Source of the DNA: Candidatus Ruminimicrobiellum bubulum
Lineage (GTDB): Bacteria; Elusimicrobiota; Endomicrobiia; Endomicrobiales; Endomicrobiaceae
NCBI GenBank assembly: GCA_017651625.1
Contig: JAGCCP010000043.1
Coordinates: 1 to 64,000, forward strand
Length of the DNA: 64,000 nucleotides
Direction: 5' to 3'
The position numbers and the translations under genes were made by a program. The notes under the pieces are model-generated. The model had not been told where the DNA came from. It made no database searches and saw only the letters and a program-made list of their open reading frames with translations. Positions 1,325 through 9,471 of this stretch are shown one piece after another. Every line of letters starts with the position of its first letter. The stretch's first letter is position 1.

Positions 1325-1340
1325 ACACAACATATAGGTA
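1325..1340 (+). promoter_or_regulatory. NrdR-type box 1 (candidate)
   Basis: acaCAACATATAGgta fits the 16-bp NrdR consensus acaCwAtATaTwGtgt at nearly all core positions, with C for T at one. NrdR is the ATP-cone repressor of ribonucleotide reductase operons and binds paired boxes about three helical turns apart. This box starts 32 bp before box 2. The pairing and the position directly upstream of the nrdD promoter make the call more than a chance AT-rich match. Confidence 0.65.
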
Positions 1341-1356
1341 TTAAAAGCATATAAAA

Positions 1357-1372
1357 AATCAATATATTGTGT
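1357..1372 (+). promoter_or_regulatory. NrdR-type box 2 (candidate)
   Basis: aatCAATATATTGtgt matches the NrdR core CwAtATaTwG at all ten positions and keeps the tgt flank. It ends 8 bp before the -35 hexamer of the nrdD promoter, where a bound repressor could hinder RNA polymerase. Together with box 1 it forms the standard two-box arrangement. Confidence 0.7.
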
Positions 1373-1380
1373 TTTAGGTA

Positions 1381-1409
1381 TTGACAAGCCATAAATTAAA
1401 ACATATAAT
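1381..1409 (+). promoter_or_regulatory. Sigma-70 promoter for the riboswitch-nrdD transcript
   Basis: A consensus TTGACA (1381-1386) is followed after exactly 17 bp by a consensus TATAAT (1404-1409). Transcription would begin near 1416, just before the cobalamin aptamer. It is the strongest housekeeping promoter seen in the window. Confidence 0.85.
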
Positions 1410-1429
1410 CAATCTATAATTTTTGAAAC

Positions 1430-1605
1430 CTTTTGTTGGTGTTTTCATATAAAACTTAATAGGAAATTCCGTTAGAATCGGAAGCACTCCCGGTGCTGTG
1501 ATAGGGAACGAAAAACTTTTTGAAACAAAGTCACTGCTTAATTTAAGCGGGAAGATAAAGTTTAGTAGGTTATTACCCTTAAGCCAGAAGACCTGCCAGC
1601 AAATA
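1430..1605 (+). promoter_or_regulatory. Cobalamin (B12) riboswitch aptamer
   Basis: The conserved pieces occur in order: AATAGGAA (1458-1465), CCGGTGCTGTGATAGGGAA (1490-1508) and the B12 box AAGCCAGAAGACCTGCC (1581-1597), which differs from the published consensus at one position. The closing stem P1 can form between TTTGTTGG (1432-1439) and CCAGCAAA (1596-1603). Cobalamin riboswitches usually switch expression off when adenosylcobalamin is plentiful. Upstream of a B12-independent ribonucleotide reductase this typically means a B12-dependent class II enzyme exists elsewhere in the genome. That partner is not in this window. Confidence 0.93.
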
Positions 1606-1746
1606 CATAATATTTATAAGAGTTGTCGAGGAATGACTTTTTATAATTCGAATGGAAACAAGAAACCAGGGTGCCTTTCCATAATTATGTTCAAAATTAA
1701 CAGAAGTATTAAAATAAAAATTTTAAAAAACAAGGAGAAAATGTAA
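1606..1746 (+). promoter_or_regulatory. Riboswitch expression platform and nrdD leader
   Basis: This 140-base leader has no convincing gene. It can form a hairpin in which ATAATT and ATGGAAA pair with TTTCCAT and AATTAT (about 1641-1687) but lacks a following U tract, so it does not look like an intrinsic terminator. The ribosome site AAGGAG (1731-1736) is followed by a minimal ATG-TAA at 1741-1746 and then the nrdD ATG at 1747. Control at translation initiation is therefore more likely than attenuation, by inference. Confidence 0.5.
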
Positions 1747-3849
1747 ATGGAACAACTTTCGGTTTTTGATTGTATCGTAAAGAGAGACGGCAAACAAGAA
1801 AAATTCAACTCACAAAAAATTCAACAGGCAATTTTAAAAGCAGGTCAGGCAACAAATGAATTCGACGACAAAATCGCTTCGAAATTAACAGTAAAAGTTT
1901 TAAGTATCGCACAAGAAACCATTACGGACGGACATCCTACCGTAGAACAAATACAGGATATAGTTGAAGAAGTATTATTGAATTCTCCTTATAAATCTTC
2001 AGCAAAGGCTTACATTATATATAGAGATCAACACTCAAAAATGAGAGAAATCGTTTCAAAGTTTAACGTAGACTTGGTTGATCAATATTTATCTAAAGCA
2101 GATTGGCAAGTAAAAGAAAACAGTAACATGTGCTATTCTCTTCAAGGATTAAACAATTACATTTCTTCCGAAGTAAGTAAAGCATATTGGTTAAACAAAA
2201 TTTATACGGAAGATATAAGAAAAGCTCACAGTGAAGGCGATTTACATATACACGATTTAGGAATTTTGGGTGTATATTGTGTAGGTTGGGATTTGCACGA
2301 TTTATTGGTTACAGGTTTTAAAGGTGTTGCAGGTAAAGTTGAATCCCGCCCTGCAAAACATTTTAAAACAGCATTAGGACAAATAATAAATTTCTTCTTT
2401 ACATTACAGGGTGAAGCAGCAGGTGCACAAGCATTTTCAAGTTTCGATACATTGCTCGCACCTTTTATTGCATACGACAATTTATCTTATAAAGAAGTTA
2501 AACAAGCATTACAGGAATTCTTGTTCAACTTAAATGTTCCTACAAGAGTAGGTTTCCAGTCACCGTTCACAAACTTAACACTCGACTTAAAAGTTCCTAA
2601 ACACTATAAGGATGAAGCTGTTATCATCGGAGGAAAACCTCAACCTAAAACATACGGCGATTTCCAAAAAGAAATGGATATGTTAAACAAAGCATTTTTG
2701 GAAGTTATGCTCGAGGGTGATGCAAAAGGCAGAGTATTCAGTTTCCCTATCCCTACATACAATATAAGCAAAGATTTCGATTGGGATAATCCTGAACTTA
2801 AATTGTTGTGGGATGCAACAGCAAAATACGGTATTCCTTACTTTGCAAACTTCATCAATTCCGATATGGATCCGGACGATGCAAGAAGTATGTGCTGCAG
2901 ATTAAGAATCGATAACAGAGAATTAAGAAGAAGAGGCGGCGGACTTTTCGGTGCATCTCCTTTAACAGGTTCTATCGGTGTTGTTACATTAAATATGCCG
3001 AGACTCGGATATGAAGCAAAAACAGAAGAAGAATTTTTCCAAAAATTAGATAAATTAATGACTATTGCTAAAAACAGCTTGGAAACAAAGAGAAAAGTTT
3101 TGGAAAAACTTACTGACCAAAACCTTTATCCGTATATGAGTTTCTATTTAAGAAACATTAAACAGAGATTCGGCTGCTATTGGAAAAACCATTTTTCAAC
3201 CATTGGTGTTGTTGGTATGAACGAATGTTGCTTAAATTTCTTGAAAGAAAACATTGCAAGCCAAAAGGGTAAAGATTTTGCAATAAAAGTATTAACTTTT
3301 ATGAGAAATACTTTACAAAAATATCAGGAAGAAACCGGAAATATTTATAATTTGGAAGCAACGCCTGCAGAAGGTACTTCTTACAGACTCGCAAAGATAG
3401 ATAGAAAGAGATATTCCGATATAATATTTGCAAATATGGATGCTGTTAAACAAAATCATCCTCCTTTCTATACAAATTCTACACAGTTACCTGTAAATTA
3501 TACAGATGATTTGTTCGAAGTTTTGGAACTTCAACACGAAATACAATCATTGTATACCGGCGGAACAGTTCAACACATGTTTATCGGTGAACAAATTACA
3601 AACACCGAATCCATGAAGAACTTTATTAAGAAAGCATTTACAAATTACAAATTGCCTTATATGTCTATCACTCCGACATTCAGTGTTTGCCCTAATGACG
3701 GATATCTTAACGGTGAAGTAAAAGTTTGTCCTCATTGCGGATCGAATTGCGAAGTATATTCAAGAGTTGTAGGATACTTAAGACCTGTATCTCAGTGGAA
3801 CGACGGTAAACAAGAAGAATTCAAAATAAGAAAAGTAGCAAATATGTAA
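1747..3849 (+). CDS. nrdD: Anaerobic (class III) ribonucleoside-triphosphate reductase
   Basis: The 700-residue protein is full length for NrdD. It has an N-terminal ATP cone (about residues 5-95, starting FDCIVKRDGKQEKF), which senses ATP/dATP, then the ten-stranded barrel with the active-site cysteine loop (SMCCRLRIDN). Near the C-terminus are four zinc-binding cysteines (CPNDGY and CPHCGSNC) and the glycyl-radical segment RVVGYLRPVSQWNDGK. It makes deoxyribonucleotides in the cytoplasm without oxygen, usually with formate as reductant, and is activated by the NrdG-type protein encoded next. ATG 1747 is preferred because of AAGGAG 10 bp upstream. The gene sits behind NrdR-like boxes and a cobalamin riboswitch. 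The call is very secure. Confidence 0.97.
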   Translation: MEQLSVFDCIVKRDGKQEKFNSQKIQQAILKAGQATNEFDDKIASKLTVKVLSIAQETITDGHPTVEQIQDIVEEVLLNSPYKSSAKAYIIYRDQHSKMREIVSKFNVDLVDQYLSKADWQVKENSNMCYSLQGLNNYISSEVSKAYWLNKIYTEDIRKAHSEGDLHIHDLGILGVYCVGWDLHDLLVTGFKGVAGKVESRPAKHFKTALGQIINFFFTLQGEAAGAQAFSSFDTLLAPFIAYDNLSYKEVKQALQEFLFNLNVPTRVGFQSPFTNLTLDLKVPKHYKDEAVIIGGKPQPKTYGDFQKEMDMLNKAFLEVMLEGDAKGRVFSFPIPTYNISKDFDWDNPELKLLWDATAKYGIPYFANFINSDMDPDDARSMCCRLRIDNRELRRRGGGLFGASPLTGSIGVVTLNMPRLGYEAKTEEEFFQKLDKLMTIAKNSLETKRKVLEKLTDQNLYPYMSFYLRNIKQRFGCYWKNHFSTIGVVGMNECCLNFLKENIASQKGKDFAIKVLTFMRNTLQKYQEETGNIYNLEATPAEGTSYRLAKIDRKRYSDIIFANMDAVKQNHPPFYTNSTQLPVNYTDDLFEVLELQHEIQSLYTGGTVQHMFIGEQITNTESMKNFIKKAFTNYKLPYMSITPTFSVCPNDGYLNGEVKVCPHCGSNCEVYSRVVGYLRPVSQWNDGKQEEFKIRKVANM

Positions 3850-3964: not shown

Positions 3965-4558
3965 ATGAGAATAGGCGGATTACAAAAATTTTCATTTATA
4001 GATTACCCAAATAAAACTGCAGCCATTATTTTTACTCAAGGTTGCAATTTCAGATGCGCATATTGTCATAATCCGGAACTTGTTTATCCTAATATGTATC
4101 AAGTTCCTATGCCGGAAGAACAAGTTTTTGCTTTTCTTGAAAGCAGAAGAAATCAGTTGGATGCCGTAGTAATAACAGGCGGAGAACCGACATTACAACC
4201 GGACTTAATTGAATTTATTAAAAAAGTTAAAGCTATGGGTTTTTTGGTAAAACTCGATACTAACGGATCAAATCCGGAAATAGTGAAACAAATAATAGAT
4301 CAAAAAATAGTAGATTTTATCGCTATGGATATAAAAGCTCCTTTTGATAAATATAATTTAGTTTGCTGTACTCCGGTAAATATTGATAATATAAAATTAA
4401 GTATAGAATTAATTAAAAATTCAGGTATAGACTTTTTGTTTAGAACAACTTACGATAAATCCAAATTGTTCGATGAAGATATACGAACAATGACAAAATT
4501 CCTTAACGTTGATACCCATTACAAAGTACAGAAATGTAATCCTGTAGTATTGCATTAG
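3965..4558 (+). CDS. nrdG: Anaerobic ribonucleotide reductase activating protein (radical SAM)
   Basis: The 197-residue protein opens with MRIGGLQKFSFIDYPNK and has the radical SAM cluster motif C27-x3-C31-x2-C34 (GCNFRCAYCHNP), followed by the SAM-contacting GGEPTLQ loop. This N-terminus is typical of the NrdG-like subfamily annotated as anaerobic ribonucleoside-triphosphate reductase activating protein. It would cleave S-adenosylmethionine and place the glycyl radical on NrdD, encoded 115 bp upstream. The spacer contains a dispersed inverted repeat but no obvious promoter, so nrdD and nrdG probably share the riboswitch-controlled transcript. The pyruvate formate-lyase activase family is a close relative, but the context favours NrdG. 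Confidence 0.9.
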   Translation: MRIGGLQKFSFIDYPNKTAAIIFTQGCNFRCAYCHNPELVYPNMYQVPMPEEQVFAFLESRRNQLDAVVITGGEPTLQPDLIEFIKKVKAMGFLVKLDTNGSNPEIVKQIIDQKIVDFIAMDIKAPFDKYNLVCCTPVNIDNIKLSIELIKNSGIDFLFRTTYDKSKLFDEDIRTMTKFLNVDTHYKVQKCNPVVLH

Positions 4559-4566
4559 ACAAGACA

Positions 4567-7500
4567 GTGTTTCAAAAAATTTTATCTTTATTTTTAACAA
4601 TATCGTTTTTAATAGTAACGGTAATTCCGCAAGGAGTTACCGCTACTAACATTATTAGCGCTTTTCAAAGTACACAAAACACCTCTTTGGAAATATTAGA
4701 AAAAGTTCCTAAAGAAATAGGTAAGATTTTTGAAACAAACATAAAAAAAGATTCCGATCCGAATGTCATATTAATTTACGATATGCATTGCCAACCGTAT
4801 GCACAAAACAATATATATTCGATAATAAACTATATCAATTCCAATTTTGAAATAGACAAAATATTTGTTGAAGGTGCACCAAACGGAAAAGTTGATACGT
4901 CGTCCATAAAAGATATCGATATTGGAACAAGAACAAAAATTTTAAGTAGCATGTTATCAAAAGGATATTTGAGCGGAACGGAACTTTATTCTTATTTATC
5001 ACAAAAAGACAATTTGTACGGAATAGAAGATTTAAATCTTTATCTGCAAACAGTAAAAGAATATGTTAATATTTTACCTTCTCAAAAGGAATACTTATCT
5101 TACATAAAAAAATCCGAAAAAGAATTAGTAAAAGCTAAACAAAACCTTTATACCGCAGACATGAAATTCTTTGAAAAACTATTTTTTGAAGACATAGACT
5201 ACGATTTAAAAGCCATTGCTAAAATAAAAAGATTTTTAACGGAAAACAATATCGATTTGTCGTCACAATATTCTAATATAGACATATATTTAAAAATCAA
5301 AGAATATGAACAAACAGACACAAAAAATTATTATAAAGATTTACAGGCTTTAATAAATATCTGCAAGGATAAGCTTCCTTTCAATATATATTCAAAATTA
5401 ATAACCAATCTTAAAGATAAACATATAGAAATACAATTGTCTCAAGTGTATGCAAGTATAAAACAATTGTTATCGGAACAAGAAATATCTAAATATAACT
5501 ATATAGAAAAAATTCAAGATAAACATTTGTTGTTATCGAGTTTCAATATTAAAAACTTTTTAAAAGAAAAAAAAGAGTTATATGACGAACTATCGAAAGA
5601 AATATTTAATACAGACTTATTATATAAAACAATATCGCAAACAAAATTTTTGTACACCTTAAAACAGTTTGTTCAACTAAAAATGAGTTACGATGATGTT
5701 AATGAATTGTTGTCCAATCCTGACAACATAAATAGTAATGAACAATTATCGGCCATTTTAAACAATGAACATATTAACAAATACTATGAAAATCATATAT
5801 TGAGAAACAATATATTTGCCCAAAACATTTTAAATACTATCGAAGAAGATACAACAAATATTGTGGTTGTAGGCGGTTTTCATAATGAACTTGAAACACT
5901 ATTAGATAAAAACAACATTAAATATATAAGTGTTTTCCCGAACGCACAAGCGGGAAATTATAAAATCTATAACAAAATAATGACAGATATTGCTTTATTA
6001 AACAATTGTTTGTCGGACGGTCTGTTGGTTTCTGTTTTATCGAACCAAAAACAAGAACAATTTTTGGTATCGTGGATAAAGGAACTACAAAATCAGGGAT
6101 TAAAAGATTCCGAAATTGTTAACATTATTAAAGATTGGGCTCAAAAACATCCGGAATTTTTTAATAACGGAACAGATGTTAAAGAGACAGTTTTAAAAAA
6201 TAATAAGTTAAGCATTAAAGGTTGGCTATTAAAAGCAAAAGATTTCTTGAAAAGAGATTTTTCGACATTTAAAACTGCTTTTCTATATAAATATGACGGA
6301 AATAATCCCAACGGACTTGACCAAACAACTGTTAATAAAATGGAATCTAATATCAGATATTTCCCTTTTATACAGTTCATGTTGGGATTTGATTTATACA
6401 GTTCATTTTCAATGGTATTCATGCAATCCAACGGGTACGGATTACCGTTTATTTCTTTAGTAATGTCGTTACTTGCACCGATATCTTTTGCAACATCGGG
6501 TATAGGCGGATTTATAGGAGACAAGTTCTCAAAGAGAACATTAATTATTTTATCTATTTTCGTTCATGCTATGGGTACAATAGCATTTACATTGTCGGGC
6601 CTTTCACCGGTATTACTCATAGCATCGCAAATACTTCCTACAATAGGAATTTCATTACTTTCGTTAACATTAAGTCCGTTCTTATATAAATCGTTAGATA
6701 ATCTCGGACAAAAAGATTCGTTCAAAGAAATTTACGGTTCCAACTTATCATTGTTCTGGATAATAATGTCGGTATCATCGTTACTTGGTGGAGCATTAGC
6801 CGCATTAACCGGTCAAATGGCTGTAATAGCAATTGCGGCAATTCCGGACATTGTTATTGCGGTAGGCGCATTGTTATTCACGCACGACGAAAATATAATT
6901 GCTTCAAACGAAGAAACAGTTGAAACGGAAAAAACAACTGCACAAAAGAAGAATATAAAAGATTTTGTTAAAGAATTCTTTGCTCCGGTAAAGAAGTTGT
7001 CATCGGACAAGAAGACGTTCTCTCTTGCTACATTAAATATTGTTGTAAACAACATGTTCTTTGTTGTATTGTGTTTCTTCTTACAACCTACATTAATGGC
7101 AACAGGTATAAATGTAGGACTTTTAGCACCTGTTTATTTTGCGGGAAACTTAATGCAATCTTTAGCATCGCATTTGATAAGCAAAGTAAGTTTTATTGTA
7201 GAAAACAAGACAGTAAGAACAATAACTTTTGCTGTATCCGCGGGACTGTTTGCTTTGTTCGCAGCAACGGGTCACCCGATATTCCTGGTTTCCGTATATG
7301 TTCTGATGAACTTCTGGCAAGGAACTTCTTCATTAACGGAAGTTTCCGCAGTATATAAAACTTTAGACGATAATATGAGATCTAAGTGGTTAGGATTTAA
7401 ATCCATGTTCGGTATGATAATTTCAACCATTACACAAATTTCAATAAGCGGATTACTTGCTATCGGCCTTTCGAACAACGTTATTATTGCCGCCGCAGTA

Positions 7501-7629
7501 GGTATTATTACAGGTGCATCGTTCATAATCCCGAAACTTATCGGCAGAACGGAAAAGAAAGAAAATGTTTTGAGCGAAGATTTGGATATAGGTATCGAAC
7601 AAATAAGAACAATGTTATCTTGCGCATAA
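4567..7629 (+). CDS. Giant exported protein 1: DLH/EGAP/GGFH module fused to an MFS-type transporter
   Basis: This 1020-residue protein starts at GTG 4567, eight bases after the nrdG stop. A Sec signal or anchor (MFQKILSLFLTISFLIVTV) needs this start. Residues about 65-470 are the shared module: D72-M73-H74, E102-G-A-P105, an S-x-G-x-LSG-x-E block near 130-140, a long helical stretch, then GGFH at 436-439. From about 593 to 990 there are about twelve hydrophobic segments resembling a major facilitator transporter, with the loop GFIGDKFSKRT typical of the MFS loop between helices 2 and 3. The transport substrate is unknown. Two paralogous modules occur in this window with different C-termini. 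I do not recognise a named family for the whole protein. Confidence 0.75.
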   Translation: MFQKILSLFLTISFLIVTVIPQGVTATNIISAFQSTQNTSLEILEKVPKEIGKIFETNIKKDSDPNVILIYDMHCQPYAQNNIYSIINYINSNFEIDKIFVEGAPNGKVDTSSIKDIDIGTRTKILSSMLSKGYLSGTELYSYLSQKDNLYGIEDLNLYLQTVKEYVNILPSQKEYLSYIKKSEKELVKAKQNLYTADMKFFEKLFFEDIDYDLKAIAKIKRFLTENNIDLSSQYSNIDIYLKIKEYEQTDTKNYYKDLQALINICKDKLPFNIYSKLITNLKDKHIEIQLSQVYASIKQLLSEQEISKYNYIEKIQDKHLLLSSFNIKNFLKEKKELYDELSKEIFNTDLLYKTISQTKFLYTLKQFVQLKMSYDDVNELLSNPDNINSNEQLSAILNNEHINKYYENHILRNNIFAQNILNTIEEDTTNIVVVGGFHNELETLLDKNNIKYISVFPNAQAGNYKIYNKIMTDIALLNNCLSDGLLVSVLSNQKQEQFLVSWIKELQNQGLKDSEIVNIIKDWAQKHPEFFNNGTDVKETVLKNNKLSIKGWLLKAKDFLKRDFSTFKTAFLYKYDGNNPNGLDQTTVNKMESNIRYFPFIQFMLGFDLYSSFSMVFMQSNGYGLPFISLVMSLLAPISFATSGIGGFIGDKFSKRTLIILSIFVHAMGTIAFTLSGLSPVLLIASQILPTIGISLLSLTLSPFLYKSLDNLGQKDSFKEIYGSNLSLFWIIMSVSSLLGGALAALTGQMAVIAIAAIPDIVIAVGALLFTHDENIIASNEETVETEKTTAQKKNIKDFVKEFFAPVKKLSSDKKTFSLATLNIVVNNMFFVVLCFFLQPTLMATGINVGLLAPVYFAGNLMQSLASHLISKVSFIVENKTVRTITFAVSAGLFALFAATGHPIFLVSVYVLMNFWQGTSSLTEVSAVYKTLDDNMRSKWLGFKSMFGMIISTITQISISGLLAIGLSNNVIIAAAVGIITGASFIIPKLIGRTEKKENVLSEDLDIGIEQIRTMLSCA

Positions 7630-7728
7630 TTTATCATCTTAAATATTCAATTTCAATGTTTTGCACTATTGCAATTCTAATTTGATAAAATAATAAAGCA
7701 ATAATTTTATAAAAGGGTGATTTATATT

Positions 7729-9471
7729 ATGAAAAAAATTTTAGGGATTATTTTGTTATTAATATTGTTGGGTTGTATTGTCATAAGTTGTTTAGGTATT
7801 CTATATTTTCGAGCTAACGATGTTGGCAACTGGAAAAATATAGCAGCAGTATCTGCAGGTAAGTTTCATACAGTAGGTTTGAAAAAAGATGGAACCGTAG
7901 TTGCTGCCGGTTGGTGGCTTTTTGGACAAGGACAATGTAAAGTTAAAGGTTGGAAAGACATAGTGGCAATATCTGCCGGTGCTTATCATACAGTAGGATT
8001 AAAAAAAGATGGAACCGTAGTTGCTGTTGGTTGGAATGAAGAAGGACAATGTAATGTTAGTGATTGGAAGGATATAGTAGCAATATCTGCCGGAGACGCC
8101 CATACTGTAGCTTTAAAGAAAGATGGAACCGTAGTTGCTGTTGGTTACAATAAATACGGACAATGTAATGTTAGTGATTGGAAAGATGTAATAGCCGTTT
8201 CTGCCGGATACTACCACACTGTGGGTCTAAAAACGGATGGAACGGTAGTTGCTGTTGGTCATAGTACAAATGGACAATGTAATGTAAGCGACTGGAAAGA
8301 CATAGCAGCAATATCAGTTGGTAATACTTATACAGCAGGATTAAGGAAAGACGGAACAGTTGTTGCCGTTGGTTTAAATAGGTTTGAAGTACACAATATT
8401 GAAAGATGGAAAGATATAGTGGCAATCTCAGCCGGTACCAATCACATTGTAGGATTAAGGAAAGATGGAACGGCAATAGCCATTGGTTATAATGAGTATG
8501 GACAATGTAATGTTAATGATTGGAAAGATATAATAGCGATTTCTGCCGGAAAAGATCATACGATAGGCTTAAAGAAAGATGGCACGGTAATATATGCCGG
8601 TAAAAATATTAGTGACTTAAATTCTATTCTAAGGATTATTGTTTATTTATATAATAACATTAGAGATAAAAAAAATATATCGGCAATCTCAGCCGGTTAT
8701 AATCATACGGTAGGATTAAGGAAAGATGGAACTGTAGTGTCTGTTGGTGAGACCAGAGATGGACAGCATAATGTTTATAGATGGAAAAACATAGCAGCAA
8801 TATCTGCGGATGGTCTTCACACGGTAGGTTTAAAGAAAGATGGAACGGTGGTTGCTGTTGGCGGTAATATATTTGGCCAATGTAATGTAAGTGGTTGGGA
8901 TAACATAGTGGCAATCTCAGCCGGAGATTTTCATACAGTAGGTTTAAAAAAAGATGAAACAGTAATGGCTACCGGTCACAGTGAATATGGACAATGTGAT
9001 ATTGAAAACTGGAAAAACATAATAGCAGTGTGTGCCGGTGGTGTTCATACGGTGGGATTAAAGAAAGATGGAACAGTAATTGCTACCGGTAGTAATAAGC
9101 AAGAACAATGTAATGTAAGTGATTGGAAAGATATCGTAGCAATCTCAGCCGGAGATTTTCATACAGTAGGATTAGAAAAAGATGGAACCGTGATTGCTGT
9201 CGGTAATAACAAATATGAACAGTGTAATGTTAACAGTTGGAAAGATATATCAGCGATTTCGGCAGGTGGATTTCATACGGTAGGATTAAAGAAAGATGGA
9301 ACGGTCTTTGCTGTCGGTGATAACAAGTATGGTCAATGTAATGTAAGTGATTGGAAAGATATAGCAGCAGTTTCTGCCGGATACTGCCATACGGTGGGTT
9401 TAAAGAAAGACGGAACAGTAGTTGCCGTTGGTGATAATAGAAGTGGTCAATGTAAAACTCAAAAGATGTAA
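7729..9471 (+). CDS. Exported RCC1-repeat protein A (two seven-bladed propellers predicted)
   Basis: After a hydrophobic N-terminus with cysteines (MKKILGIILLLILLGCIVIS, possible lipoprotein or anchor), the 580-residue protein consists of 14 RCC1-type units of about 39 residues, consensus WKDIVAISAGxxHTVGLKKDGTVVAVGxNxxGQCNVSD. RCC1 units build seven-bladed beta propellers that serve as binding surfaces. Fourteen units fit two propellers, and the only irregular unit, with an extra stretch (SDLNSILRIIVYLYNNIRDK), is the seventh, just where a linker would be. ATG 7729 is preferred over GTG 7717 because the AAAAGGG preceding it is placed as in the paralogue downstream. Surface or periplasmic binding is inferred; the ligand is unknown. 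Confidence 0.85.
   Translation: MKKILGIILLLILLGCIVISCLGILYFRANDVGNWKNIAAVSAGKFHTVGLKKDGTVVAAGWWLFGQGQCKVKGWKDIVAISAGAYHTVGLKKDGTVVAVGWNEEGQCNVSDWKDIVAISAGDAHTVALKKDGTVVAVGYNKYGQCNVSDWKDVIAVSAGYYHTVGLKTDGTVVAVGHSTNGQCNVSDWKDIAAISVGNTYTAGLRKDGTVVAVGLNRFEVHNIERWKDIVAISAGTNHIVGLRKDGTAIAIGYNEYGQCNVNDWKDIIAISAGKDHTIGLKKDGTVIYAGKNISDLNSILRIIVYLYNNIRDKKNISAISAGYNHTVGLRKDGTVVSVGETRDGQHNVYRWKNIAAISADGLHTVGLKKDGTVVAVGGNIFGQCNVSGWDNIVAISAGDFHTVGLKKDETVMATGHSEYGQCDIENWKNIIAVCAGGVHTVGLKKDGTVIATGSNKQEQCNVSDWKDIVAISAGDFHTVGLEKDGTVIAVGNNKYEQCNVNSWKDISAISAGGFHTVGLKKDGTVFAVGDNKYGQCNVSDWKDIAAVSAGYCHTVGLKKDGTVVAVGDNRSGQCKTQKM

Follow-up and report, generated by a model that had tools for sequence, protein, structure and literature searches.

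We suggest that the nrdDG operon, for an oxygen-sensitive and B12-independent ribonucleotide reductase, of the rumen bacterium Candidatus Ruminimicrobiellum bubulum (Endomicrobiaceae, Elusimicrobiota) is probably controlled in two stages, by NrdR and by an adenosylcobalamin (AdoCbl) riboswitch, with AdoCbl acting as the OFF signal. Both the ligand and the sign of the response are inferred from sequence. The window, i.e. the whole stretch of DNA that was analysed, is a 64-kb part of a 1.88 Mb genome on 58 contigs that is rated 100% complete. The initial annotation had placed two 16-bp NrdR-like boxes, a consensus promoter and a B12 aptamer in series before nrdD. All of these elements were recovered, the aptamer by an Infernal match to the full Rfam model, and their order is conserved in related genomes. 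The features, all on the forward strand, are as follows.

1325-1340, forward strand: NrdR-like box 1, ACACAACATATAGGTA, 12 of 16 positions matching the NrdR consensus, aligned and conserved in relatives

1357-1372, forward strand: NrdR-like box 2, AATCAATATATTGTGT, 14 of 16 positions matching the NrdR consensus

1381-1409, forward strand: sigma-70 promoter TTGACA-N17-TATAAT, 12/12 to consensus, with TTGAC and the TATAAT core conserved in relatives

1420-1614, forward strand: cobalamin riboswitch aptamer (RF00174), 97.5 bits (gathering score 31.5), E 4.2e-23, model positions 1-189 of 189

1484-1496, forward strand: P5/L5, GCACTCCCGGTGC, the putative L13 partner as read from the sequence, with TCCCG kept in 15/15 aligned leaders

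1618-1641, forward strand: P13/L13 hairpin with the loop TCGAGGA at 1626-1632, its putative pairing to L5 containing one bulged base

1652-1682, forward strand: competitor hairpin AS, consisting of ATGGAAA, a loop with a conserved GGGT (1669-1672) and TTTCCAT

1676-1753, forward strand: predicted OFF pairing of the AS 3' strand TTTCCAT with the nrdD start-codon region, from a minimum-energy prediction

1747-3849, forward strand: nrdD, class III anaerobic ribonucleotide reductase, 700 aa (TIGR02487 600 bits, NF006126 1092 bits)

3965-4558, forward strand: nrdG, radical-SAM activase, 197 aa (TIGR02495 209 bits)

The trans-acting partners that such control calls for, nrdR and a class II reductase gene with NrdR boxes of their own, had been proposed as a check and are all present in one cluster elsewhere in the genome. 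In brief, nrdR (TIGR00244, 181 bits, E 1.1e-53) is directly followed by nrdJ, encoding the AdoCbl-dependent class II enzyme (NF006417 1221 bits, TIGR02504 756 bits). The nrdR promoter has a TTGACA with a diverged box behind it and, past the -10, ACACAACATATAGTAT, an arrangement that recurs in many nrdRJ promoters of Endomicrobiaceae. The class I small subunit, PF00268, was not found in the genome, and class II and class III are therefore the only reductases seen.

The genome has two RF00174 sites, the nrdD leader and one before a btuB-like receptor gene, and no match to the AdoCbl-II aptamer, RF01689. Genes similar to btuD, btuC and btuF and a CobA-type adenosyltransferase gene adjoin btuB; these names are best matches, several of them below equivalog cut-offs. 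The CobB/CbiA model TIGR00379 had no match in the genome, which suggests that it depends on imported corrinoids. The btuB aptamer (L071, G000:C43:75843-76012) is directly followed by a strong Shine-Dalgarno sequence and a tiny frame, MKQSFIIYG*, and then by btuB. The tiny frame was seen by eye in 17/22 btuB leaders and in 4/4 from other families of the order (including L155-L158). Because it lies directly behind the riboswitch in most leaders, the btuB riboswitch may act on the translation of this frame.

The NrdR-like boxes were scored with an IUPAC NrdR consensus. They lie 32 bp apart from start to start, which leaves a 16-bp spacer, and are the only pair in the window with both boxes scoring at least 12 and starts 29-33 bp apart. 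The pair scores 26. With the site cut out, none of 3000 random 600-nt stretches of the window held a pair scoring at least 24; this null replaced an earlier one that gave 0.27% at the same threshold but was not clean, the site having been left on the minus strand. The core of box 2, TATTGTGT, is invariant across seven aligned sequences. Box 1 is weak by itself, with three mismatches, and the genome, which is AT-rich, shows no excess of single boxes (123 forward matches with at most three mismatches, against 113 in a backwards control). It is thus as a phased and conserved pair that the boxes count as evidence. NrdR spacers of 15-16 bp are common and those of 14-17 bp were bound well in vitro (PMC12051234), a range that includes the spacer of the predicted site. 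Isolated near-consensus boxes elsewhere were considered and set aside; one (L239) lies inside a coding start, and another (L240) stands alone upstream of a groES/groEL-like pair.

The distance from the end of box 2 to the -35 hexamer is 8 bp, and both boxes are upstream of the -35 and off the promoter core. Transcription would start at about position 1416, so that a transcript from the promoter at 1381-1409 should include the aptamer. The two-input gate of the initial annotation is supported, as a prediction, by conserved elements. Its NrdR arm is less certain than had been implied, since the boxes do not lie on the promoter core; NrdR, if it binds here as we presume, may act weakly or in another way than by repression.

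The same position raises the question of whether the boxes are relics of an older promoter, NrdR no longer controlling nrdDG in this genus and the riboswitch acting alone. The lack of single-box enrichment would fit this, as would the fact that boxes of the nrdRJ promoters, and of the nrdD promoters in genera g3, g4, g5 and g7, lie downstream of TTGACA and over or beyond the -10, unlike those in the window; in these four genera, box 1 of nrdD begins approximately 22 bp past TTGACA, near the -10. However, in genera g1, g14 and g11, whose boxes precede the -35 element, the boxes keep a 30-32 bp spacing and the core TATTGTGT, while the flanks vary. Furthermore, box 2 of Streptococcus pneumoniae nrdHEF is located upstream of both promoter elements (PMC12051234), and both box positions relative to the promoter are known for NrdR sites (PMC12051234, PMC4409342). 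We therefore consider the relic explanation unlikely, and retain NrdR as the probable first input.

We compared 15 leaders, those of G000, G047, G049, G052, G054, G055, G060, G061, G066, G067, G068, G070, G073, G074 and G075. The P13/L13 hairpin is found in all 15, with the loop (T/C)CG(A/C)GGA and a stem of 4-11 pairs; at one level of the stem, A-T, C-G and T-A pairs occur in different genera. L5 reads TCCCGG or TCCCGA and is complementary to the L13 loop with one bulge. A kissing loop of L5 and L13 is typical of class I cobalamin riboswitches. The complementarity of L13 to L5 is -5.1 and that to another stretch of the aptamer slightly better, -5.7.

The AS hairpin is likewise present in 15/15 leaders, with stems of 4-8 bp, energies of -2.6 to -6.6 kcal/mol and a conserved GGG(T/A) loop, and in every one of them its 3' strand is shared with a downstream structure of lower energy. 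What this downstream structure is predicted to be differs between genomes. In G047, G049, G052, G054 and G055, a stem that competes with AS is followed by a T run, i.e. a predicted intrinsic terminator. In G060, G061 and G075, a long and strong predicted stem covers the Shine-Dalgarno sequence, and G073 and G074 have a shorter one. Between G060 and G061 the sequestor arms are changed on both sides with the pairing retained. In G000 (the genome of the window), G066, G067, G068 and G070, the AS strand is predicted to pair with the start-codon region, which is the weakest case. The sequestor of the window is weak, with the start-codon region paired and approximately -10 kcal/mol predicted for the entire downstream fold; possibly, the modelled OFF pairing also covers the Shine-Dalgarno sequence AAGGAG at 1732-1737.

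The sign of the response would depend on which hairpin is the partner of L5. The AS hairpin was taken as P13 until the TCGAGGA hairpin was found in all leaders, and that assignment survives as an alternative in which the GGGT loop is the true L13, and AdoCbl stabilises AS, keeps the terminator or sequestor from forming and increases nrdDG expression. Such an ON switch would agree with AS excluding the terminator in G047, G049, G052, G054 and G055 and the sequestor in G060, G061 and G075, and with the complementarity of the AS loop GGG to the CCC of L5 in 15/15 leaders. On the other hand, a better canonical L13 (TCGAGGA/TCGCGGA) is found in a separate, conserved hairpin in just as many leaders (15/15) and resembles the CGAGG(G/A) that adjoins the ribosome-binding site of btuB leaders in this order; it is also hard to see what a cell would gain by activating a B12-independent enzyme with B12. 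An ON switch is thus quite unlikely in our judgement. The reading that we prefer is that L5 leaves AS for L13 upon ligand binding, which would make AdoCbl the OFF signal in every version of the leader.

In the two-stage control that we propose, NrdR loaded with dATP/ATP would bind the phased boxes and lower initiation when dNTPs are plentiful, as judged from NrdR biochemistry elsewhere. In the transcripts that are made, AdoCbl would bind the 5' leader, L5 would kiss L13, and the weak AS hairpin would lose. The released AS 3' strand would then form the OFF structure, a terminator in some relatives and a sequestor of the Shine-Dalgarno sequence or start codon in others, the window having the weakest version of the sequestor. 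The cell would accordingly produce NrdD and NrdG mostly under B12 shortage and at low dNTP levels, and would use NrdJ when supplied with B12.

The complementarity of the AS loop is nearly the same for L5 (mean -6.4) as for the aptamer strand at about 1575-1579 (mean -6.7), so that a coupling of L5 to AS is putative. Tentatively, and with rather low confidence, we speculate that the leaders share a device that works by exchange of kissing partners. With AdoCbl, L5 would pair with L13; without it, L5 or 1575-1579 would pair with the GGGT of AS and hold the anti-terminator or anti-sequestor open. The device would have been swapped for AdoCbl-II in G046 and G048 with the NrdR input kept. If true, the same device would work through terminators in part of the genera and through sequestors in other genera. 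In the B12 riboswitch of Mycobacterium tuberculosis metE, L13 overlaps the anti-anti-element, whereas L13 and the competitor are separate hairpins here.

The end of the leader also holds a short frame, 1688-1746, whose TAA in the window directly abuts the nrdD ATG, as would be expected if it were translated as a leader peptide and coupled to the translation of nrdD. However, the stretch is missing in G073, G074, G075, G060 and G061, and the end of the frame is shifted in close relatives. We rejected the leader peptide as highly improbable.

Among 76 Endomicrobiaceae genomes, RF00174 is found in 30, NrdR in 50, PF02867 in 62, NrdD in 46, a BtuF-like protein in 60 and a CobA-like protein in 55. 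An intact nrdD with an RF00174 match over the cut-off directly before it on the same contig is found in 14 of the 46 nrdD-bearing genomes, namely G000, G047, G049, G052, G055, G060, G061, G066, G067, G068, G070, G073, G074 and G075. Boxes were scored in 43/46 nrdD genomes, leaving out G069 and G045, where the sequence was too short, and G064, with a 27% identical match. The pair scores at least 24 in 25/43 genomes and below this in 18/43; it reaches the threshold in 11 of the 14 genomes with RF00174 before nrdD and falls below it in G052, G055 and G060.

The aptamer takes other forms elsewhere in the family. In G046 and G048, AdoCbl-II (RF01689; 37.7 and 40.8 bits) replaces RF00174 before nrdD. 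RF00174 is below the cut-off before nrdD in G008 (23 bits), and in G054 and G069 it lies at a contig end with nrdD on a different contig. In the termite-symbiont-type genus g3, the pair scores at least 24 in 12/21 scored genomes, and an aptamer over the cut-off precedes nrdD only in G040. The leaders of G008, G010, G017 and G019 resemble decayed aptamers by eye. No RF00174 match was found in G065, G071 and G072 of the window's own genus, some of these genomes being incomplete. The pair scores 27, i.e. strong, in G072, where the boxes sit downstream of a TTGACA, and is weak in G065 (23) and G071 (21). G065 and G072 retain BtuF-like and CobA-like genes, and the loss of the aptamer there does thus not track loss of B12 use. 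We also looked outside Endomicrobiaceae by a motif scan of 80 nrdD loci, with Rfam run on 14 of the 80, and obtained matches only in four Endomicrobiaceae loci.

In G040 (L020, C34), nrdD is broken by several stop codons and lies behind the 60-bit RF00174 match and a strong terminator-like stem; judging from the sequence, this nrdD operon is apparently in decay. Several Elusimicrobiaceae nrdD matches (L187, L190, L197 and similar ones) span approximately 2390 bases as compared to approximately 2100, which suggests that extra sequence was inserted within or ahead of the gene, or that the match is a joined one.

NrdR and a B12 riboswitch act on one ribonucleotide reductase operon in Streptomyces coelicolor, nrdABS; that operon encodes a class Ia enzyme, whereas the one described here encodes class III. 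The combination on nrdDG is not new either, as the nrdDG of Propionibacterium (Cutibacterium) acnes has been reported with a cobalamin riboswitch, a nearby nrd-box pair and an nrdRJ with boxes of its own, as found here (PMC3848588). For P. acnes it was proposed that B12 lowers nrdDG and favours NrdJ (PMC3848588). In P. acnes, a long distance separates the active nrdDG promoter from the nrd-boxes downstream of it, and these boxes may drive a riboswitch-free transcript (PMC3848588); here, in contrast, the single strong promoter follows the boxes, so that any transcript from that promoter carries the riboswitch. P. acnes also has an nrdAB with a riboswitch (PMC3848588), whereas no class I small subunit was found here.

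The initial annotation had further stated that B12 riboswitches before B12-independent reductases are known. This agrees with the literature; in Desulfovibrio vulgaris and Desulfuromonas, as here, a B12-element precedes the B12-independent nrdDG with nrdJ located elsewhere, and repression by B12 was proposed (PMC545781). Unlike here, no NrdR input is described in that account, the term "nrdr" occurring 0 times in the available text of PMC545781. A literature search by title and start of abstract, with a coverage that lies mostly outside the subscription literature, gave no Endomicrobia case of a B12 riboswitch on nrdD or nrdDG.

The findings extend to Elusimicrobiota the known logic by which the B12-dependent reductase is preferred when B12 is at hand. 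What makes the system interesting is the evolutionary series together with the proposed switching device, rather than the two-input gate as such. The genomes form a natural series of one promoter that has the aptamer, has one of another class in its place, or has it decayed or missing, often with the NrdR boxes kept; this would allow one to study what a cell pays and gains by sensing B12 in its supply of dNTPs. The approximately 15 leaders also provide a set for comparing termination and translation variants of one platform.

The surroundings of nrdDG gave some further observations. Upstream, an intrinsic terminator-like stem with 17 pairs at 1263-1302 ends a glutathione-peroxidase-like gene, and there is therefore probably no read-through from this gene into nrdDG. 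Downstream, a third gene of the operon begins 9 bp past nrdG (4567-7629) and encodes a 1020 aa protein with an MFS transporter domain (PF07690) at the C-terminus and no Pfam match in the N-terminal half. Homologues of this gene also come after nrdG in genera g1 and g11. A cobalamin-type aptamer precedes the homologue in G075 (L133; RF01689 35.3 bits, RF00174 32.3 bits) and in G064 (L135; RF00174 28 bits), and based on these aptamers the product is possibly a B12-linked transporter. The gene at 7717-9471 encodes a 584-aa protein that consists nearly entirely of RCC1-like repeats (PF13540, 379 bits, 12 stretches).
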